Under the pieces are notes generated by a model. It was given only the letters and a program-made list of their open reading frames with translations, made no database searches and was not told where the DNA came from. A DNA stretch of 64,000 nt from Planctomycetota bacterium (GTDB lineage Bacteria > Planctomycetota > Planctomycetia > Pirellulales > Pirellulaceae), in the NCBI GenBank assembly GCA_016872725.1, contig VGZC01000031.1, positions 1-64,000 of the forward strand, given 5' to 3'. How positions within the stretch are numbered: position 1 is the stretch's first letter; each line of letters starts with the position of its first letter. Shown one piece after another: positions 21,569 to 32,552 of the stretch. The translations under genes and the position numbers were made by a program.

Positions 21569-24500
21569 TCAGCCGGCGAGCGCCGATTGGAATCGCTTCG
21601 CCGGAAGGAACGCGCCGACGCACATCACGGCCAACTGGCTCACGACGAACAGCCCCAAGGCCAACAGCACGCCTTCGGTGAATCCGTACGAGTGCAAGCC
21701 GACGCCAAGCTCGTTCACGCCGAACCACGACCAGCTCGTCGCCATGTTGCCTCCGACGGCGAGGATCGCAAGTCCTCGGTCCCCGATCATGCGACCCCAT
21801 CGCGCGTGGAGAACGACGGCATTCCAGAGCACGATGATCAGGGCTCCGTTCTCCTTCGGATCCCATCCCCAGAATCGGCCCCACGAGTCGTCCGCCCAAA
21901 GGCCGCCCAGCACGGTTCCGAGGAAGCTGAACAAGATGGCGAAACAGATCGTCCCATAAATCATCCGGATCATCGCGGACGAAGCCTCCGCGTCGAACGA
22001 TCGAACTGTGGCCTTGTCGAGCAGATAGATCAGCCCGATGCCGCCCGCGACAAACGTCGCGCAGTAACCGAGCGTGATGCTGACGACGTGCGTCGACAAC
22101 CAGAACTGGGTGTCCAGGACGGCTTCGAGCACGGGCATCGTGTCGCCCGAGTTCGCGAGGAAGCTCGCGATGATCAACGTCGCGAAGGCCGTCACCGACG
22201 CGACCAGATTGCCGACACCCATTCGGAACAGGATTTCGATCGCCATTCCGAACGCGACCGCTCCCCATCCGATGAACACGGCCGACGAATAGAGGGTCGT
22301 GACCGGAGGCCGCCCGGAAATGTGGATGCGCGCGGCGATCGCGAACGTGTGCGCGAGGAACGTCACGGCGATCAGCCAAAACGACGCGCGATTGAGCGGA
22401 CGGCTCCAGCCAAGCCACGCGAGCGCGGCGAGCACGAACGCCGCGAAGTAGGTCCACTGCGCGTGGAAGAACGGAGCGAACCGCCCGTAGAACGCCTCGA
22501 ACCGCACTTTGTCGGCATCGATCGAATCGCCAGCCGCTTCCTCCAAATAGGCTCGATAGTGGTCGAGTTCGCGATTGAATTCGACCGTGTTTCCTTTCGC
22601 GTAGGCGGTGAGCATCGCGCGGAACGCCAGAGCGCCTTCATTGACCGACGCGGGCGTCGGCCCCGGCGCGAGTGCGCTCTTCAGTCGGGCGATGTACGCG
22701 CCCGTATAGGCCGAGGCGAGCGGCTTCCAGGTACCGTCGGCGAACGGGATCGCGCGGGGCGGGTTCATCCGTTCCAATTCGGCGTCCCGCGCCGGCGCCG
22801 TTTCGATCATCTCGCGGATCGCCGCCGCCATCGCGCGGGCCTGGTCCGAATCCGCCTTGAGATCCTCGGCCTTTGGCGCCCCGTCGGGCAGCGATGGGGT
22901 CCGGAACGCCGACTGAATGACGAGATACGCTCGAAGACGCCGGTCCAATTCGAGGATCTTCCGCTGATAGACACTGAGTGATCCCGTCTCGGCCTGTTCG
23001 GCGTTCGAGGCCAGCTCCACCTGCCGCTCGAACTCATCGAGTTTGTCCTTGAATTCGTTGATCGCGTAACGGAAGCCCTTGCGCGGTTGGAGCCCGAGAA
23101 CCTGGAGCACGTCGAGATTCTCGATCCGGACGACGCGATGGTCGTACGCGGCCGGCGCGTCGGAGACGACGTCGAGGAACCAGCGGATCGCGGGATGCCT
23201 CTGTTTCGCGCGGTCCTTAAACGATTCGGTGTTGGAGAGCGACCGCAGCGCGTTGCGTGCGACCGTTTCGAGCGGTTTCACGCGCCCTTCGAATTCGACC
23301 GGCAGCTCCGAAAATCCGATCAGATCCATGCCGCGCGACGCGGGCGGATCGCGCGTTACGGCGGGCGCGACCAGCCAAACGAGTCCGATCGCGACGACCG
23401 CGGGAACAAACAGGCGTTCGAGCCACCGGGACCGCGCTCCCACCGGCGTCCCGGACCGATCGAACGACCCGCGATCGCCGGCCGCCCGCGCGCCGCGCGG
23501 CGAGGGCCGGTCGCCCTTCGCGCGATGCAGTACGGGTGCAACGGGAAGGTCTCCCGTCGCGGCGGCCATCGCCTCGAACAGGGCCTTCTCCCGCTGGATC
23601 AGGAATCGGACCAAGGTCCCCCAGAAATGGGCGATCATGCCCACGCCGACGATCATGCACGCGACGTAGGGGATCATCCATCCCGTGTTGCGGACCACCT
23701 GCAATTCGGTTGACTCGACGCCGTCCCGCCCCTGTTCGTATTTGCTCTGGTAGAACGTTTCCCCCGCATACCGGAGCGGATTGTTCATCCAGATCTTGAC
23801 CTCGCGATCGACGTTGCGATCCCGATCCACGATGCGGACGATCGACGCGTAATTGCGGGCCTTGCGGGTTCCGCTGTAGTCGTCGCGAACGACGTCCAAC
23901 AGGGTCATCGCGTATGGCTTGTACGTGCGCCGGAAACGAAGGGCGACCTCGTACGTCTTCCCTCCGGCCGAAACGGACTCCGAATGGCCGTTCAGAGCGG
24001 CGAGCACCGACACGAGATAGGTGCCGATCGGATTGTGCGATTGGGGATCGGACAACGTGACATAGGCGGCGGCGAGGTCAACCGCGCCGCTCGCATCCGC
24101 GCCGCTCCCGCCGCGGAGTTCCTTGACGGCGTATTGCAGGCCAAGCCCGGCGGTCGCCCGATTCGTCGCGTTCGGTTCGACGCGCTGCAAATCCGCATTC
24201 CGATGGTACTCGGTAACCCGCACCTCGAACGGCAGGTCCGGGTCGACGATCGGCTCGCCGGTGTCGGCGCTCCGCGCGAGAAGCTCGCGCGGGATGGCCG
24301 TCACCTCGTCGCGATCGGACGGCGATCGGTCGACGATCGCCAATTCAACCGTTCGGATGTCCTCGGCGTAGTGAACGGTCGCCCCCTCTCGGATCGCCAT
24401 CCGTTCCTCGACGTTGTAGACCGTCGCGACGAATTGGCCGAACATCAGAAGGAGGATGCCGCCGTGGATGAGTACGATCCCGGCGCGGCGGCGAAAGACG

Positions 24501-25282
24501 ATCGAGCATCCCGCGAGGAGCACCAAGCCGGCGGCGCCGCCCTGGACCAGTTGCCACAGGATGCGCAGCGACGAATCGCTCAGGTCGGTTTCGAAGGCGA
24601 AGATCCAGGCGAGCAGCGCGGCGAGCGCGCACTGGGTTCCGCCCAGCGCGGCGAGCCCGAGGTATCGAGACCCTCCCGGACGCGTGATCAGCCGGAACAA
24701 CGGCCAGAACAAGACGACCCAAACGCCGATCAGCGCGGCGCGGATCGCGGTCCAGAATTGGGACCATTCGAAAAACGGCTCGTCTTGAATGCCCTCCCTG
24801 TCGTGCCCCATCGCGATGACGGCCCACGTCACGGCCACCCCCGCCGCGATCACGGCCAGCCCCGCCATCAACCGCCCCCCCCGCGCCTGGACGCGGAACC
24901 GGATCGCGTGCGCGGCGAGCAGATTGACGATCATGGCAAGCCCAATCGACGCGCCGCCGGGAAAGAAAAACACGAACGGCGGGATCTTGCCGTGGAGATT
25001 GGGGAAGAACGACCGCGGGAACAGGACCGGAAGCTCGATCCAAGCCACGTACGACGCGAAGTACGTGTCGATGACGTCCCACATGTTGCTGTCGGTCTGA
25101 GCCAGCGTGCCGACGAGGACGATGAAGATCCCCATCGCGAGAAGGACGACGGTGAGCTTGAGCGAAGCGAGCGCCCCGAGCGCCCGGCGCGGCCAGCGGG
25201 ACGGCGCGCGGGGAGCGGGTCGGTCCCGATCCTGGAACCCGATCGCCTCATCCCTCCGCGGCGTTTCCAATTCGATCGCCAT
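21569..25282 (-). CDS. ResB-CcsA fusion (system II cytochrome c maturation)
   Basis: This 1,237-residue membrane protein combines two partners of system II cytochrome c biogenesis, which moves heme outward and attaches it to apocytochromes. The N-terminal half has ResB-like membrane segments (LKLTVVLLAMGIFIVLVGTL; SIGLAMIVNLLAAHAIRF) and a large extracytoplasmic domain up to ~residue 600. The C-terminal half has a further soluble stretch (~650-950) starting near GFSELPVEFEGRVKPLETV, and a CcsA core with SITLGYCATFVAGGIGLIYL and the WWD-like WGWDPKENGAL motif at about 1138-1148, plus a histidine in VVLHAR. The ATG at 25282 has GAGGTGATC before it. The lipoprotein gene lies 37 bases upstream. 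Confidence 0.9.
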   Translation of the reverse strand: MAIELETPRRDEAIGFQDRDRPAPRAPSRWPRRALGALASLKLTVVLLAMGIFIVLVGTLAQTDSNMWDVIDTYFASYVAWIELPVLFPRSFFPNLHGKIPPFVFFFPGGASIGLAMIVNLLAAHAIRFRVQARGGRLMAGLAVIAAGVAVTWAVIAMGHDREGIQDEPFFEWSQFWTAIRAALIGVWVVLFWPLFRLITRPGGSRYLGLAALGGTQCALAALLAWIFAFETDLSDSSLRILWQLVQGGAAGLVLLAGCSIVFRRRAGIVLIHGGILLLMFGQFVATVYNVEERMAIREGATVHYAEDIRTVELAIVDRSPSDRDEVTAIPRELLARSADTGEPIVDPDLPFEVRVTEYHRNADLQRVEPNATNRATAGLGLQYAVKELRGGSGADASGAVDLAAAYVTLSDPQSHNPIGTYLVSVLAALNGHSESVSAGGKTYEVALRFRRTYKPYAMTLLDVVRDDYSGTRKARNYASIVRIVDRDRNVDREVKIWMNNPLRYAGETFYQSKYEQGRDGVESTELQVVRNTGWMIPYVACMIVGVGMIAHFWGTLVRFLIQREKALFEAMAAATGDLPVAPVLHRAKGDRPSPRGARAAGDRGSFDRSGTPVGARSRWLERLFVPAVVAIGLVWLVAPAVTRDPPASRGMDLIGFSELPVEFEGRVKPLETVARNALRSLSNTESFKDRAKQRHPAIRWFLDVVSDAPAAYDHRVVRIENLDVLQVLGLQPRKGFRYAINEFKDKLDEFERQVELASNAEQAETGSLSVYQRKILELDRRLRAYLVIQSAFRTPSLPDGAPKAEDLKADSDQARAMAAAIREMIETAPARDAELERMNPPRAIPFADGTWKPLASAYTGAYIARLKSALAPGPTPASVNEGALAFRAMLTAYAKGNTVEFNRELDHYRAYLEEAAGDSIDADKVRFEAFYGRFAPFFHAQWTYFAAFVLAALAWLGWSRPLNRASFWLIAVTFLAHTFAIAARIHISGRPPVTTLYSSAVFIGWGAVAFGMAIEILFRMGVGNLVASVTAFATLIIASFLANSGDTMPVLEAVLDTQFWLSTHVVSITLGYCATFVAGGIGLIYLLDKATVRSFDAEASSAMIRMIYGTICFAILFSFLGTVLGGLWADDSWGRFWGWDPKENGALIIVLWNAVVLHARWGRMIGDRGLAILAVGGNMATSWSWFGVNELGVGLHSYGFTEGVLLALGLFVVSQLAVMCVGAFLPAKRFQSALAG

Positions 25283-25319
25283 GATCACCTCGAAGATGAC
25301 GGAGACCGCGCGCCGTGCG

Positions 25320-25934
25320 TCATGGGGGCGCGGCGCCGCGATAGTCGCAGACGAACACCGGGCCCCCATCCGAAGCGGTCAGCGATTCCAGCTCCGCCCT
25401 GAGCTGCTCCGCGACCAGCGCGGGCAGGCCGATCTGGCCTCGCCACCGATTCACGTTCGCCAACAGGTAGTCGTTCAAATCACCCGCGGGCAGCGGAAGT
25501 TTGGTCACCGAAACATCCAGCCGCGCGCCGTCCTGAACGGTCCGAAGCGTCTTGAACCGGATCGCGTCGCCCGGCAGTTCCTCCCATCCGGCGGGCAATG
25601 TCCACGTCGGTTCGCCCGCGGCATCGAGCGAGAAGGACCGAGCGATCTCGCGAAACGGCGCCGACGCCTTTTGGACGGCCGAGTCGGCCGCGGTCAGCTT
25701 CAAGAACCAGACATCGGCCGCGCGCGGGGCCATCGCCGCAAGCAGGCGGACCGATTCGGCATTCGCCCGCTCCTCGGACGCCGTCTTGGGAATCGAATAC
25801 CGCGTGATTTCAGCCGACTCGCGGCAACCCGCGATTCCGATCGACACGCCAATCCATAACATGGTCCCCAGTCCGGAGCGCGCGGCGCGGCCATGGGGGG
25901 CGTTCGGACGAGAGGCCGGTGGGTCGTGGATCAT
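25320..25934 (-). CDS. lipoprotein encoded with the cytochrome c maturation fusion
   Basis: The 204-residue product carries a lipobox: a hydrophobic stretch 'LGTMLWIGVSIGIAGC', with Cys37 as the likely lipidation site. The mature part contains WFLKLTAADSAVQKASAPF and 'WTLPAGWEELPGDAIRFKTL', then a C-terminal VFVCDYRGAAPP. I do not recognise a family; the context, 37 bases upstream of ResB-CcsA in the same operon, suggests an extracytoplasmic helper in heme or cytochrome assembly. A consensus-like promoter (TATAAT) sits just before the start, so the mRNA could be leaderless. An ATG at 25862 is an alternative but would leave no charged n-region. Confidence 0.7.
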   Translation of the reverse strand: MIHDPPASRPNAPHGRAARSGLGTMLWIGVSIGIAGCRESAEITRYSIPKTASEERANAESVRLLAAMAPRAADVWFLKLTAADSAVQKASAPFREIARSFSLDAAGEPTWTLPAGWEELPGDAIRFKTLRTVQDGARLDVSVTKLPLPAGDLNDYLLANVNRWRGQIGLPALVAEQLRAELESLTASDGGPVFVCDYRGAAPP

Positions 25935-25986: not shown

Positions 25987-27186
25987 TCACTTGTTGAGTT
26001 TCAGCGCGTTGACGATCCCGTCCATGACCATCGACGCGACCGACCGGTCCGACGCGTCGTCCCAGCTCCACATGTTGCGCACGACGTCGAACATGAGGAT
26101 GCCGCACAAGGTCAATACGGTGACCGACGCGAACAGAAAGACGACGTCGTAGATCGAGTAGGGGATCTCGACCACGGGAGCGTAGCGAACGCCGGCGTCC
26201 GCCGGAGCGGCCGATACGCCGATCGCCTCGGCGTCGAATCCGACCGCCTCCTCGCCCCCGCCGGGAAGCTCGAACGACGGATCGAGCTCGATGATCTGCG
26301 ATCCGCTCGTTTCCTCGTCGTCGGTTCCCTCGCCCGCGGGCGAAAGCATGAATTCCTCGTCCTTCTGAACGACGGGGTCCGTTCCCGCGTTCGCCAAGTC
26401 CATGACCCCGTCGTCGTCCTCGGGCAATTCGAGCGACGAGACGGCTCCGAGGTCGAGTGCGTCATCGTCGAGCGAGAGGCCGCTGTCGGACGGGCTCGCC
26501 AAATTGATCCCCGTGTCCGATGGGCTGATCGTGATGTCGCTTCCCGTTCCGCTCCCCGAAAGGACCAGTTCCTCGTCGTCGCTCAGCGAAAGGTCCTCGT
26601 CGAATTCATCGGTCCCGAGTCCGAGTCCGCCGCTTCCGACGTCATCGAGTTTTCCGGTGCCGCCCGAACTGCCGGTCGAGAGCTCCAGTTTCAGATCGCT
26701 TCCCGTTCCGGACCCGCCGAGCAACTTCGAGCTTCCGCCGGGAACGATCTTCACGTCGCTGCCGTCGTCGTCGAGAACGAGCTGGACATCGCTGTCGCTC
26801 ATGCCCTTGAGATTCGGCGAGCTGCCGCTGAGGAGGTCGCTCTCGCCGCCGGCGAGGGACGCGTCGCTATCGGCGAGCCGGATATCGCTTTCCGCGCGGT
26901 TCTCGCCGCCCGCTCCGATGATCGTGCTCGAGGCACGGGGCATAGCGCCGAGCGGTTCATCGGAGACGAGGATCGAATCATCGTCGTCCGATGCGACGTC
27001 CGGCGCGCCCGATCCGGCCGTCAGTTCGAATTCGGACGCGAATCGATCGACCTCGGTATCCTTGAACTTCCAGCTCGCGCCGTCGCGATATCCGTGGATG
27101 TCGTTCCGCTCGCGCGCTTCCAGAAGCGCTTCGGGTGGGATGCCAAGCCGCTTGGCGGCTTCATTGAGCGGAATGAACTTGGTCAT
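25987..27186 (-). CDS. helix-turn-helix protein with acidic middle and C-terminal membrane anchor
   Basis: This 399-residue protein has three parts. Residues 1-55 (TKFIPLNEAAKRLGIPPEAL, then GYRDGASWKFKDTEVDRFA) match an excisionase or MerR-like helix-turn-helix. Residues ~60-310 are low-complexity and highly acidic, rich in Ser, Asp, Gly and Leu. Near the C-terminus, residues ~346-366 form one membrane segment (IYDVVFLFASVTVLTLCGIL) followed by a 35-residue tail. So it may be a membrane-tethered DNA-binding protein. The ATG at 27186 has a GGAG 7 bases upstream. A small secreted-protein gene lies 63 bases upstream on the same strand. No target is known; no catalytic motif is present. Confidence 0.7.
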   Translation of the reverse strand: MTKFIPLNEAAKRLGIPPEALLEARERNDIHGYRDGASWKFKDTEVDRFASEFELTAGSGAPDVASDDDDSILVSDEPLGAMPRASSTIIGAGGENRAESDIRLADSDASLAGGESDLLSGSSPNLKGMSDSDVQLVLDDDGSDVKIVPGGSSKLLGGSGTGSDLKLELSTGSSGGTGKLDDVGSGGLGLGTDEFDEDLSLSDDEELVLSGSGTGSDITISPSDTGINLASPSDSGLSLDDDALDLGAVSSLELPEDDDGVMDLANAGTDPVVQKDEEFMLSPAGEGTDDEETSGSQIIELDPSFELPGGGEEAVGFDAEAIGVSAAPADAGVRYAPVVEIPYSIYDVVFLFASVTVLTLCGILMFDVVRNMWSWDDASDRSVASMVMDGIVNALKLNK

Positions 27187-28612: not shown

Positions 28613-29983
28613 GTGAAAGACCATCGACCGTCGAATGGATTCGCTCGAATCGCGGGCGCCATCGGGTGGCCTGTTCTGATCGGACTTGCCGCATGCAGCC
28701 TCTTCTTTGCCGCCATCTTCCGCGGACCGCTCGACATACCCTTGATGCATCGGTATTTCGCCGGCCATCCGGTCTCGATCTGCGAAACGGCCTTCTTTTT
28801 CGTCGGGCTCGCCGCGCTCGCACTCAAGCTTGTCGAAGTCGCCCTCCAGGCGACGCTGATCGGCGAATTGCCTTTCGAGCCCGCGGCGGGCGCCGTGGGA
28901 ACGGCTCATTCGGATCCGATCGACGCCGCGCCGCCCGCCGAGTCGGCGCGGCGTCTGCTTGACCAGCTCGACGCGGCCGGCGAGCGGGTTCGCGAGTCGG
29001 CGCTCGGGAATCGGATCCGGCAAGCCGTCCGGTACGTGGCGAAGTCCGGTTCCCCGCAAGGGCTCGAGGAGGAACTCAAGTACCTTGCGGACCAGGACCA
29101 GGATTCGCAGCACGAGAGCTACGCGCTGGTGCGCATCGTGATCTGGGCGATTCCGATGCTCGGGTTCCTGGGAACGGTCATGGGCATCGCGCAGTCGCTG
29201 GGCGGCCTCGATCCCCAACAGCTCGCGACGAATCCCAGCGAGGCGATGCAGGGCCTCCTCGCGGGGCTCTACGTCGCGTTCGACACGACGGCCATCGCGC
29301 TGATGATGTCGATCGGTCTGATGTTCCTTCAGTTCCCGATCGACCGCGTCGAGCTGCAGTTGCTCGCCCAAGTGACGTCGCGGGCGTCGGACTTGCTGAT
29401 CGGCCGGTTTCCCGCGGGCGCTCTCGACCTCGATCCGCATCTCGCCTCGATCGAACGCATGTGCTACGCGGTGATGCGGTCGGTCGACGGGATCGTGGAA
29501 CGGCAGGCCGAGGTATGGCGGAAGAGCCTCGGTCAGATGCAGGAACAGTGGCATGGTGGTTGGGACGAGGGGTCCGATGCGTTGCGCCGCGCCCTGTCCG
29601 CGTCGCTGGATGAGACACTTTCCTCGCACGCCGAGGAACTGCGCCGCATCGAGGACCAGGCATCGCGCAGCGCGGCCGAGCGATGGGAGCGATGGCAAGG
29701 TCGCCTTGACGCGAGCACCGAGGCGCTGCACGCCCAACAACAGGCGTTCGAGCGTCAAGGCGAATTGATGTGCCGGGCCATCGAAGTGACCGGGGATGTC
29801 GTCCGCCTCGAAAAATCGCTCAACGAGAATCTCGAACATCTGGCCGGCGCCCGGCACTTCGAGGACACGGTGATGAGTCTTTCGGCGGCCATACAGCTCC
29901 TGAGCACGCGTCTTCCTCCGGCGCCCGAGGCGCGCCGCGTGGAACTTCGGCCGACCGCCTCCCAGCAAGAGCGCGCCGCATGA
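28613..29983 (+). CDS. MotA/TolQ/ExbB-type proton channel protein
   Basis: The 456-residue product starts at a GTG with AAGGA upstream and has four membrane segments (~13-36, 57-80, 173-197, 214-241). The third contains 'IPMLGFLGTVMGIAQSL' and the fourth 'VAFDTTAIALMMSIGLMF', both typical of the MotA/TolQ/ExbB family, which forms proton-driven stator complexes at the inner membrane. After ~245 comes a long helical, probably coiled-coil cytoplasmic tail to the C-terminus (including 'RRIEDQASRSAAERWERW'), longer than in usual ExbB (~240 residues). The stop overlaps the next start by 4 bases (ATGA). With the two downstream genes it likely forms an energised envelope machine. Confidence 0.85.
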   Translation: MKDHRPSNGFARIAGAIGWPVLIGLAACSLFFAAIFRGPLDIPLMHRYFAGHPVSICETAFFFVGLAALALKLVEVALQATLIGELPFEPAAGAVGTAHSDPIDAAPPAESARRLLDQLDAAGERVRESALGNRIRQAVRYVAKSGSPQGLEEELKYLADQDQDSQHESYALVRIVIWAIPMLGFLGTVMGIAQSLGGLDPQQLATNPSEAMQGLLAGLYVAFDTTAIALMMSIGLMFLQFPIDRVELQLLAQVTSRASDLLIGRFPAGALDLDPHLASIERMCYAVMRSVDGIVERQAEVWRKSLGQMQEQWHGGWDEGSDALRRALSASLDETLSSHAEELRRIEDQASRSAAERWERWQGRLDASTEALHAQQQAFERQGELMCRAIEVTGDVVRLEKSLNENLEHLAGARHFEDTVMSLSAAIQLLSTRLPPAPEARRVELRPTASQQERAA

Positions 29984-31542
29984 CTCGGCGCGCGAAACAG
30001 AAACCGGATGTCACCCTCGCGCTCTTCCCCTTCCTCGCCGTGCTCGTCTGCACGATGGGAGCGCTCATTGTGCTCCTCGTCCTCGTCATGCAGCAGGCGC
30101 GGGCCGACGCGGTCGACGCGGCGGCTCGCCGAACCGAACAAGACCGGAATGCCGCTCGGGAACGGACGGAAGGATGGAAGACGGAGGTCGAGGACCAGAC
30201 CTGGCGGGGCGACGTGCTGCGGCAGCAGCGCGACGCGTTGGTCGGGCAACTGGGAGACAAGCGGCTCCAGCTTGCGCATCTCGAACGGCACATCCGCGAG
30301 ATCGAGCAACGGTACGCGACGGCGCGCGGCGACGCCGAGCGGTTGCGCGCGGTGGCGGACGGTCGCGCGTCGGATATCGAGTCTCGGGCGGGCGACCGGG
30401 AGCGGCTGGAAGCGCGCGTGGCCGAAGCGCGGCGCGAGCTCGACGATGCGCGGTCCGCCGCGCGCGATCGGCCCCGCCAATACGCGATCATCCCCTATCC
30501 CGGCCCGAACGGCACGAAACGCCGTCCGATCTATATCGAATGCGCGAGGCAGGGGATCGTCCTGCGTCCCGAGAACGTCGTGCTTCGCCCCGACGATTTT
30601 GAAGGCGCGATGGGACCCGGCAACCCGCTCGACGCCGCACTCCGCACGATCCGCGAGTACCATGCGAAAACGGTCGCGAGCGGCGACGAGCCGTATCCGC
30701 TGCTCATCGTGCGTCCCGAGGGGATCGGCGCTTACGTCGCGGCGCGCGCCGCGATGAATGCCTGGGAGGACGAGTTTGGATACGAGCTCGTTTCGGAGGA
30801 GTTGGCGCTGAGCTTCCCGCCTCCCGATCCGCGGCTCGCCGCGCAAATCGAGGACGCGGTGCGCGTCGCGCGGGAACGGCAATCGCGCCTCCGCGCCGCC
30901 ATGCCATCCTTCCCCCAAGGATCCGGTTTCGTTGTCAGCGGGCGCGGCGGCGTCGTGCCGCTCGGCGGATCCAACCCGCCCGCGACCGTCGACGGACGGG
31001 GATCCGGCATCGGCCGGGGACCTGGCGGAGCCGGAACGTCACTCCGAAATGCCACCGCATCGCCGCGCCCCGATCGGCCCGGAAACGAGGACGCCGGCGA
31101 CGGACCGACGGGCCAAACGGCCTCGTCCGGCGGCCGAGCCGGATCTCCCGGCGGGTCGGGCCACGGCGGCGGTTCCTCGTTCCCGTCGATGGCCCAATCG
31201 CGCGGCGCCGATTGGGCCATCGACAAGCGATCGAGCGGTCCGACCGGTTATCGTCGACCGGTCCGCGTCGTGTGCCAGCGCGAGGCGATCGTGTTGATGC
31301 CCGAACCGGGCTCGAATCAACCCCCTAAGACCTTCCCCTTCGGCGCCGATCCCGCGCAAACACTCGACGCATTCGTCGAATCGCTGCGCGGCCGCATGGC
31401 CGACTGGGGCCTCGCTCCACTCGGCGGATTCTGGCGCCCCCGGCTTGTCGTGGACGTCGCGCCGGACGCCGCCGAGCAATTCGGGATGGTCGAGTCGCTG
31501 ATGCGCGACAGCGGTTTGGAACTGGTGAGGAACGCGCCATGA
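29980..31542 (+). CDS. large ExbD/TolR-like partner with coiled coil and Gly-rich linker
   Basis: The 520-residue product has one N-terminal membrane segment (TLALFPFLAVLVCTMGALIVLL, ~12-34) in the position of ExbD/TolR/MotB anchors, then a coiled coil (~40-165, many R, E, A), a globular part (~170-300) with 'IPYPGPNGTKRRPIYIECAR', a Gly/Ser/Pro-rich linker (~310-405), and a second globular part repeating the theme (YRRPVRVVCQREAIVLMPEP). The two globular parts look like a duplicated domain. Known ExbD/TolR proteins are ~140 residues, so this is a greatly enlarged relative; family membership is by position and anchor only. It overlaps its neighbours by 4 bases on both sides. Confidence 0.7.
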   Translation: MTRRAKQKPDVTLALFPFLAVLVCTMGALIVLLVLVMQQARADAVDAAARRTEQDRNAARERTEGWKTEVEDQTWRGDVLRQQRDALVGQLGDKRLQLAHLERHIREIEQRYATARGDAERLRAVADGRASDIESRAGDRERLEARVAEARRELDDARSAARDRPRQYAIIPYPGPNGTKRRPIYIECARQGIVLRPENVVLRPDDFEGAMGPGNPLDAALRTIREYHAKTVASGDEPYPLLIVRPEGIGAYVAARAAMNAWEDEFGYELVSEELALSFPPPDPRLAAQIEDAVRVARERQSRLRAAMPSFPQGSGFVVSGRGGVVPLGGSNPPATVDGRGSGIGRGPGGAGTSLRNATASPRPDRPGNEDAGDGPTGQTASSGGRAGSPGGSGHGGGSSFPSMAQSRGADWAIDKRSSGPTGYRRPVRVVCQREAIVLMPEPGSNQPPKTFPFGADPAQTLDAFVESLRGRMADWGLAPLGGFWRPRLVVDVAPDAAEQFGMVESLMRDSGLELVRNAP

Positions 31543-32552
31543 GACGTGGTCGGCAGCCCGATCTGACGCCCGGACAAGACTCGTTCCTCGATGTCGTCGC
31601 GAATCTCGTCGGCATCCTCATCATTCTGATCATGATCGTCGGCGCGCGAGCGCGCGAGGCCCTCGTTGACGTCGTTCCCGAGGCGACCGACACGGAAACG
31701 ACGATCGCGGCCCAAGCCGCCGACCTCAAGTCGGTCGCCGATTCGGTCGAGCACGACACGCGCGACATGGCCGCGAAACTCGAACGCCAAGACCTCGAAA
31801 TCGCCTACCGACAAAAGGAACGCGACAAGCTGCTCGTCCGATTGACCGCGTTCGAAAAGGAGATCGCGTCCGCCAGGGAGAAACTCGGCGCGGCCGAGCA
31901 AAGCGAGCTCGACGCGCAGCGCAGGACGGCCGAGCTCGAACAGGATCTGGACGAACTCGGCGCGGCGCGCGGCGCGCTCGAAAACGCGACCGGCGCCGCG
32001 TCGGTCATCGAACACCTTCCGACACCGATGGCCAAGACCGTTTTTGGAACCGAATTGCATGTCCGACTCGCGCGAGGCCGATTGGTCGTGCTGCCCTGGG
32101 AGGAACTCGTCGACAAACTCAAGGACGAAGCCCAGCAACAACTCTGGAAACTCAAGAACGCTCCCTCGATCACCGAAACCGCGGGGCCTGTCGAGGGATT
32201 CCGGATCCGCTACACGTTGCGGCAATCCGAGTCGTCGATCGAATCGAAGGTCGGGCCGGTCATCCAGCGCCACGTCGAACTCGACCGGTTCGAGCTGATC
32301 CCGGTGAGCGACGACTTGGGCGAGCCGATCGAAACGGCCCTGCGGGACGGATCGCGATTCATGGCCCATCTCGGGAACGCCGATCCCAAGCGAACGACCA
32401 TCACGGTATGGGTCTATCCCGAGAATTTCGACCAGTTCCGCAGCCTCAAATCGATGCTCTACCAGCGCGGGTTCCTCTCGGCCGCTCGTCCGATGCCCGA
32501 AGGCGTCCATATCGGCGGATCGCCGCACGGAACCCGCTCGTCGGCCCAATGA
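31539..32552 (+). CDS. second ExbD/TolR-like anchored coiled-coil protein
   Basis: The 337-residue product has a membrane anchor 'DSFLDVVANLVGILIILIMI' (~15-34), with an Asp at its start in the position where ExbD/TolR carry the essential membrane aspartate. A coiled coil follows (~50-140, KLERQDLEIAYRQKERDK and similar). A globular C-terminal half contains 'FRIRYTLRQSESSIESKVGP' and VWVYPENFDQFRSLKSMLYQ. It starts by a 4-base ATGA overlap with the preceding gene. Together with the ExbB-like protein it suggests a proton-driven motor with two different anchored partners. The specific process powered is unknown. Confidence 0.7.
   Translation: MRRGRQPDLTPGQDSFLDVVANLVGILIILIMIVGARAREALVDVVPEATDTETTIAAQAADLKSVADSVEHDTRDMAAKLERQDLEIAYRQKERDKLLVRLTAFEKEIASAREKLGAAEQSELDAQRRTAELEQDLDELGAARGALENATGAASVIEHLPTPMAKTVFGTELHVRLARGRLVVLPWEELVDKLKDEAQQQLWKLKNAPSITETAGPVEGFRIRYTLRQSESSIESKVGPVIQRHVELDRFELIPVSDDLGEPIETALRDGSRFMAHLGNADPKRTTITVWVYPENFDQFRSLKSMLYQRGFLSAARPMPEGVHIGGSPHGTRSSAQ

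Follow-up and report, generated by a model that had tools for sequence, protein, structure and literature searches.

A planctomycete gene trio encoding a MotA/TolQ/ExbB-type channel and two unequal long partners: a candidate envelope motor with a single pore aspartate

According to a structure paper from 2025, the rotary models proposed for MotAB and ExbBD all turn the dimer by 36 degrees per proton, alternating two essential aspartate (Asp) residues (PMC12215075; this and the other articles are cited from the parts of their text that were available). According to a review from 2026, the asymmetric placement of the two Asp probably matters for both the direction and the power stroke (PMC12905483). 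In the gliding motor AglRQS of Myxococcus, one channel gene is combined with two different genes for MotB/TolR-like partners; AglQ and AglS were both described with a conserved Asp, and whether they form hetero- or homodimers was stated to be unknown (PMC9389320). One tolQ-like gene with two different, heterologous tolR-like genes was described in 2025 for tolQ clusters of the Planctomycetes-Verrucomicrobia-Chlamydiae (PVC) group, Planctomycetes included; these clusters lie upstream of a vWA gene, and loss of Asp in one partner is not mentioned in the available text (PMC12204202). In GldLM, the axle protein carries a long periplasmic shaft, 18 nm in GldM (PMC9389320), and in ZorAB the channel protein has a long tail. 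Here, a gene trio is described from a stretch of 64,000 nucleotides (the window) of a Planctomycetota bacterium of the family Pirellulaceae (contig VGZC01000031.1 of GenBank assembly GCA_016872725.1, positions 1 to 64,000, forward strand). The trio consists of gene A, encoding a MotA/TolQ/ExbB-type channel subunit, and genes B and C, encoding two long partner proteins.

With ExbBD and TolQR, the trio shares the Pfam family of the channel protein and a partner with one Asp-bearing pore helix followed by a periplasmic part, which is ExbD-like by fold ranking in B. Unlike these systems, it comprises two non-identical partners of 337 and 520 amino acids, one of them without Asp, with long coiled coils, a duplicated domain in B and no match to PF02472. 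The gene content of one channel and two different partners is that of AglRQS; however, both AglRQS partners keep their Asp, whereas B lacks it in 105 of 106 loci. The PVC clusters resemble the trio in gene content and in their occurrence in Planctomycetes, but no vWA match was found in the 8 scanned genes flanking the trio. The shaft recalls GldM, although in GldM a single protein dimerises to form the shaft and A, B and C gave no match to the GldL and GldM families. The long tail of A is shared with ZorA; in contrast to ZorAB, A scores far below the cut-off, two partners are present and no defence gene was recognised nearby. The trio appears to differ from its relatives by mismatched partners, one without Asp, in an otherwise known kind of motor.

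The three genes are joined by 4-base ATGA overlaps at positions 29980 (A/B) and 31539 (B/C), and the coordinates and lengths given for them in a preliminary description of the window were exact. The GTG start of A is preceded by AAGGA with an 8-base spacer. Since ATGA overlaps are frequent in bacterial operons, their retention across relatives is the informative part. With start codons assigned by script, the A/B overlap was retained in 19 of 20 relatives and in 67 of 72 loci of a second set, and the B/C overlap in 8 of 20 and 31 of 74, respectively (the two sets have six loci in common). The order A-B-C was complete in the first 20 of 20 regions, and the trio recurred together in all 72 loci inspected over 12 kb, these loci having been picked by their C match. 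The overlap arrangement is not due to chance. The assignment of A to the motor family held, with a match to Pfam MotA_ExbB (PF01618) of 42 bits (cut-off 22.9, E 9.1e-11). B and C were likewise found to be two different long partners, each with one N-terminal anchor and long predicted helices, and their lengths lie outside the value near 140 amino acids of ExbD/TolR.

In A, the two residues that would count as pore threonines (Thr) of PF01618, T188 and T226, were invariant in 21 of 21 sequences, and from the register of the motif Thr188 is probably equivalent to the pore Thr of ExbB. D224 was also invariant in these 21 sequences and T225 was conserved in at least 90%; in a wider set, D224 was replaced by N, A or G in exceptional cases.

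Each partner contains a single, strongly hydrophobic N-terminal helix, which reads LFPFLAVLVCTMGALIVLL in B and DSFLDVVANLVGILIIL in C; the best hydrophobic windows lie at residues 18-36 and 16-34, respectively. When the two helix blocks were compared as profiles over 38 columns, they matched with an E of 8.4e-6 and a score of 24.7, placing alanine (Ala) 20 of B opposite Asp18 of C. As controls, none of 40 column shuffles scored above 14.2; the reversed block reached 13.4, and the best of four membrane stretches of A 8.0. By this profile evidence, the pore helices of B and C are homologous. D18 of C was invariant in 80 of 80 alignment rows, in agreement with the channel-type Asp proposed earlier for the third protein, and in a weak alignment of C to the ordinary ExbD proteins of the window's genome it fell on the ExbD Asp. 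All 10 ordinary ExbD proteins found in this genome keep that Asp (TPMIDVVF or similar).

The Asp site was then counted in the typical trios (type I), i.e., in 106 loci with A present after removal of 6 duplicate loci, with a widened motif pattern, a narrower one having left 20 of the 106 B helices unread. C possessed Asp in 105 of 105 readable cases, one further C being cut off by the end of its contig. B possessed Ala in 101 cases, Thr in 3, serine (Ser) in 1 and Asp in 1. An axle of two C chains would carry two Asp (105/105 for C), and an axle of one B and one C would carry one (1/106 for B). In 113 of 115 trios of both types, the 21-residue helix block of B contained no acidic residue at all. 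With its Asp lost, B is not the equivalent of C. Of the proton-driven motor with two long partners suggested in the preliminary description, the motor family, the anchors and the Asp of C were supported; the loss of Asp in B was not noticed there. Asp224 of A was considered as compensation for the missing Asp of B. A strict rule of this kind was rejected because N, A or G at this site occur together with Ala or Ser in B (L163, L148, L160), and at locus L162 A and B each carry D; the site is mostly D in both trio types.

A second and shorter type of trio (type II) was found at ten loci (L162-L169, L200 and L201), with B of ~270-290 and C of ~360-390 amino acids where the start was readable. At the Asp site, its B had Ser in 9 of 10 loci and Asp in one (L162), and all 10 of its C proteins had Asp. 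Both trio types thus typically lack Asp in one partner, but this does not hold for the whole superfamily, in which two Asp may be the ancestral condition. An N-terminal MYFxFxCxxC stretch, which we call zinc-ribbon-like, was present in type II A at 7 of 10 loci by pattern and at one more by eye. With the profile of type II C, 19 of 292 genomes in the phylum matched strongly (E at most 4e-45); four of these genomes lie outside the class. The seven type II C sequences that were aligned have a proline-rich tail closing with VD, ID or LD. Among the 106 type I loci, the sole B with Asp (LFSFLDVLLCTIG) lies at L144:6935-8971, where A is divergent too (AFNTT, short); a different state, or an older one, may be represented here.

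The lengths of the coils in B and C were found to vary together. Measured between the pore motif and the start of domain 1, the spacer had a median of 162 residues in B and 147 in C, with a rank correlation (rho) of 0.73 between the two in 89 of 130 type I loci; of the other 41, 19 have missing genes and in 22 the motif pattern failed, among them the ten loci of outgroup orders within L170-L181 in which all three genes are present. Independent contrasts on a tree of the A proteins (83 tips) gave r 0.88 for B against C coil, or 0.75 without the five largest contrasts, with a slope of 0.88 residue per residue; in 10,000 runs of a sign-flip test, neither 0.88 nor 0.75 was reached. In control contrasts, the values were 0.19 for the B coil and 0.23 for the C coil against the rest of B, and about 0 against the length of A. 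The co-variation fits a parallel B:C coiled coil.

The AlphaFold2 model of C consists of a helix at residues 14-41, helices at 52-115 and 118-149 and a domain at 171-337. In that of B, helices at 17-126, 134-162 and 284-307 and domains at 183-270 and 422-518 were predicted, with a low-confidence stretch at 330-397 (predicted local distance difference test, pLDDT, <50). The duplicated domain and the linker that had been noticed before were both recovered: a profile comparison of domain 1 of B with domain 2 gave E 1.6e-5 and a probability of 79, and the stretch between them, rich in glycine (Gly), Ser and proline, has 95 residues, 25 of them Gly. For domain 2, the top match in the VIA fold ranking was ExbD 8p9r (Z 6.5, root-mean-square deviation (rmsd) 2.6, 71 of 74 residues), tied with other folds, and three further ExbD entries were among the 50 VIA rows listed. 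Domain 1 matched TolR 5by4 with Z 6.0 and rmsd 5.0 over 86 aligned residues, again tied with unrelated folds. The fold of the C domain gave no clear match, and no ExbD was among the 50 VIA rows listed; its matches (RNase H-like, CD38 and others, Z at most 6.7) lie within the noise described for the tool and were discarded. The tail of C, GGSPHGTRSSAQ (window positions 32514-32549), was conserved to the last residue in 21 relatives, with Gly331 invariant and Ser334 and glutamine (Gln) 337 at 90% or more; in the 80-row alignment, Gln337 was no longer among the positions conserved at this level. The tail may be a binding motif.

From the observed trio, the homology of the pore helices, the one-sided loss of Asp, the co-evolution of the coils and the joint decay of both pore motifs in family f22 (see below), we infer a stoichiometry, a heterodimer, a proton flow, a direction of force and a cellular role. 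The reading that we favour, and hold to be reasonably probable, is that A, B and C form one envelope proton motor of the 5:2 type, with an obligate B:C heterodimer as axle, a single proton-binding Asp and a long periplasmic shaft. A pentamer of A would form a channel of the kind found in MotAB, ExbBD and TolQR. Inside it, one pore helix of B and one of C would make up the axle, with D18 of C as the only proton-binding Asp and A20 of B uncharged. Above the membrane, B and C would be wound into a parallel coiled coil ~110-125 residues long, which corresponds to ~16-18 nm for an entirely helical structure. The coil would bear the C domain and the two ExbD/TolR-like domains of B, of which domain 2 would be held by a flexible, Gly-rich tether. 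The axle would be driven by proton binding at its only Asp, and the cell wall or outer membrane would receive torque or pull through the shaft. With a single Asp, five protonation events per turn instead of ten would be expected.

The chances appear evenly balanced that the trio is a natural single-Asp rotary motor, with an obligate heterodimer as axle, a step of 72 degrees per A subunit instead of 36 and a heterodimeric shaft of 16-18 nm, and that it belongs to the core envelope machinery of much of the class. A second, paralogous trio shows the same asymmetry. If so, a one-Asp motor kept across the order and beyond would break the rule of 36 degrees and two Asp, or one site would be enough; the trio could then serve as a natural test of how proton-driven motors turn. 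Moreover, two protein families for which no Pfam entry reaches its cut-off would gain a widespread function, in a genome without detectable TolB and in a class reported to be without FtsZ (PMC10632474). In the openly licensed literature, as far as its text was available, nothing was found about the trio or about a natural one-Asp motor.

As to the role, the best tolQ match in the window's genome (~96% complete) reached 86 bits against the NCBIfam cut-off of 221, and TolB_N was not found at E 0.1; Pal and TolA were not searched for. As regards genomes without classic TolQR, which were raised in the preliminary description, this result covers the window's own genome. These two negatives make a Tol-like envelope duty at most a reasonable guess, and upkeep of the outer membrane or wall in cells without Tol-Pal is a role that we put forward as a doubtful one.

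Other arrangements of the same proteins were weighed against the heterodimeric axle. The strongest of them, which we still regard as unlikely, places B outside the pore: C would form homodimers as an ordinary axle with two Asp, and B would be a TonB/TolA-like transducer on the rim of A. For TonB and TolA, a position on the rim with a single membrane helix is described (PMC12905483), and B possesses the flexible tether and the additional terminal domain that would be expected of a transducer. However, the B helix is homologous to the pore helix of C, the coil lengths of B match those of C, and the 21-residue block of B lacks histidine in 114 of 115 trios (the exception is L059), which leaves no Ser-His-Leu-Ser (SHLS) motif as described for TonB and TolA (PMC12905483).

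Less likely still are two kinds of pentamer, one of A with active C homodimers and one of A with proton-dead B homodimers that would act as a brake or scaffold. Being paralogous, the B and C helices could each enter the pore. The co-evolution of the coil lengths speaks against such a separation, as do the retained 4-base coupling of A and B (19/20 and 67/72) and the recurrence of the whole trio in 72 of 72 loci, picked though these were by C.

A third alternative, in which no energised motor exists, B and C form a scaffold between membrane and envelope and A is structural, draws on family f22, perhaps the Isosphaeraceae. Here, B and C are adjacent in nine loci (L182-L190), no match to the A profile was found beside them in 9 of 9, and neither pore motif (patterns LFPFLAV and DSFLD) was found in any of the nine. 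When whole genomes were searched with the A profile, 14 of 14 f22 genomes gave partial matches only (best E 4e-17 to 1e-30), whereas two genomes from other families reached 3e-107 and 4e-69. Fifteen A-like loci of f22 were read; by eye, 14 look like one other subfamily, and the remaining one is a more divergent trio (L215). It is possible that the B-C pair of f22 is a motor-less scaffold. For the trio in general, we consider a scaffold quite improbable, since the channel Thr, the Asp of C and both pore motifs show strong conservation in loci with A. That both pore helices decay together in a family in which no type I A was found is expected if both serve A, and is predicted for a motor part.

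A Zorya-like anti-phage motor is highly improbable: the long tail of A resembles ZorA (profile match at 172-429 to structure 8qyk with E 0.0017, ranked below two designed repeat proteins; PADLOC ZorA 1.8e-5), but the PADLOC matches are weak and membership was rejected, A stays far below the NCBIfam ZorA cut-offs (19.7 vs. 190 and 14.1 vs. 100 bits), no match to an OmpA-type ZorB partner was listed for B or C, the trio is near-universal and not patchy, and a Pfam scan of the 8 flanking genes, where alone ZorC and ZorD were looked for, revealed no recognised defence gene.

Several observations weigh against the heterodimeric one-Asp axle. The models are of monomers (mean pLDDT 84.4 for C and 80.5 for B). 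Foldseek searches with the models of B and C returned nothing at E 0.001 or better, and because the ExbD/TolR fold values were tied with those of unrelated folds, they are support and not proof. By sequence, neither B nor C matches the ExbD family. Nothing above any cut-off was found for them in Pfam and NCBIfam; accordingly, no known non-motor family, a possibility raised in the preliminary description, was matched above cut-off either. In profile searches of the PDB, the best 60 of 173 rows for B and 60 of 80 for C were almost all coiled-coil, and none was named ExbD or TolR. At E 0.01, ExbD was not among the families listed for any of 80 C or any of 74 B relatives (for B, 25 of 39 families), the matches being mostly scattered coiled-coil ones. 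Profile comparison of B and C with the ten ExbD proteins of the genome gave probabilities of ~10 or less, for which reason ExbD membership is not claimed.

On the same side of the balance stands the rank correlation of 0.34 (p ~0.002) that both coils show with the rest of B, and the co-variation of the coils could also fit two separate rods that cross the same gap without contact. The Asp-bearing B proteins of L144, L162 and the divergent trio L215, the last of which was read by eye from an f22 genome and has Asp in both partners, mean that one Asp is not a rule across the whole superfamily. In f22, C of L189 keeps a remnant helix (VNLVGLLG) without Asp, and in the best cases A-like genes match the A profile over ~114-427 with E ~1e-23 to 1e-28, so that a strongly diverged and relocated A is possible there. 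To our knowledge, no phenotype of the trio has been described. In the main text of a transposon study of Planctopirus limnophila, as far as available, ExbB, TolQ, MotA and similar terms are absent (PMC10632474).

The co-occurrence across planctomycetes that had been anticipated was found. C was present in 97 of 98 genomes of the same family or order, the window's own genome included here and in the following counts, and A likewise in 97; the finding is secure in 96, as the match in one genome (73% complete, G041) is weak. The single genome without A and C is 72% complete. Both genes were present in all 79 genomes with at least 90% completeness and at most 5% contamination. In the class, the C profile matched 244 of 297 genomes (227 of 272 of high quality), a number that refers to C and not to the whole trio and contains 33 genomes of f22 and a few weak matches. 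Among 20 listed of the 53 misses, 15 belong to family f95, nine of them to genus g304. A single-protein search of the phylum gave 40 of 292 genomes, 35 within the class. The titles of the 80 best loci include Pirellulaceae, Blastopirellula, Rhodopirellula, Pirellula and Thermogutta; all 80 contain C, 79 contain B and 74 contain A, and in the six loci lacking A the contig breaks off no more than ~1.3 kb upstream of C. The features of the trio are compiled in Table 1.

Table 1. Positions of the trio and its predicted parts in the window.
Feature	Position	Strand	Basis or remark
Gene A, MotA/TolQ/ExbB-type channel subunit, 456 amino acids, GTG start	28613..29983	+	Pfam PF01618, E 9.1e-11
A Thr188 in GTVxGI, candidate pore Thr	29174..29176	+	invariant 21/21
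A Asp224-Thr225-Thr226, AFDTT motif of last membrane helix	29282..29290	+	
A helical tail, ~207 residues, presumably on the cytoplasmic side	29360..29980	+	
Gene B, long partner, 520 amino acids, pore helix without Asp	29980..31542	+	
B pore (transpore) helix LFPFLAVLVCTMGALIVLLVLVMQ	30022..30093	+	Ala20 (30037-30039) at Asp site
B coiled-coil shaft, to residue 162	30094..30465	+	AlphaFold2 helices 17-126, 134-162
B periplasmic domain 1 (183-270), ExbD/TolR-like topology	30526..30789	+	model
B Gly/Ser/Pro-rich linker (326-420), mostly low-confidence	30955..31239	+	composition, pLDDT
B periplasmic domain 2 (422-518), ExbD-like	31243..31533	+	VIA fold ranking
Gene C, long partner, 337 amino acids, Asp kept	31539..32552	+	
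C pore helix, begins DSFLDVVANLVGILIILIM	31578..31661	+	Asp18 at 31590-31592
C coiled-coil shaft (52-149)	31692..31985	+	model
C periplasmic domain (171-337), conserved C-terminal tail	32049..32549	+	pLDDT mostly >90 to residue 330

The window's genome contains nine MotA/ExbB genes, A included, and ten ordinary ExbD genes; the latter were found by a scan with PF02472, which recovered neither B nor C. These MotA/ExbB and ExbD genes lie on its contigs C2, C4, C5, C8, C12, C21, C29 and C31; on each of C4, C8, C21 and C29, a channel gene has two different ExbD genes in its vicinity. In f22, the loci L202-L214 and L216 represent another motor, in which an A-like gene is followed by a one-helix partner (EDSFVAVVVTKLTGALLF) in 4 of 5 loci examined, with Ala at the Asp site. 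One typical trio (L127) was found on a contig titled Candidatus Nealsonbacteria, which is probably a mis-assigned planctomycete contig.

Apart from antisense frames of the trio, the next commonest neighbours in the 72 loci were an HTH (helix-turn-helix)/membrane protein (26/72) and the gene upstream of the HTH gene (22/72). Since only the trio recurs in all 72 loci, the neighbourhood gave no clue to function. In the window, the commonest neighbour lies on the minus strand at 25987-27186 and combines an N-terminal HTH_17-like part (below the Pfam cut-off), a long middle part rich in Ser, Asp and Gly and a C-terminal hydrophobic segment. Also on the minus strand, at 21569-25369, a protein of 1266 residues is encoded in which ResB-like and cytochrome c assembly domains are fused.

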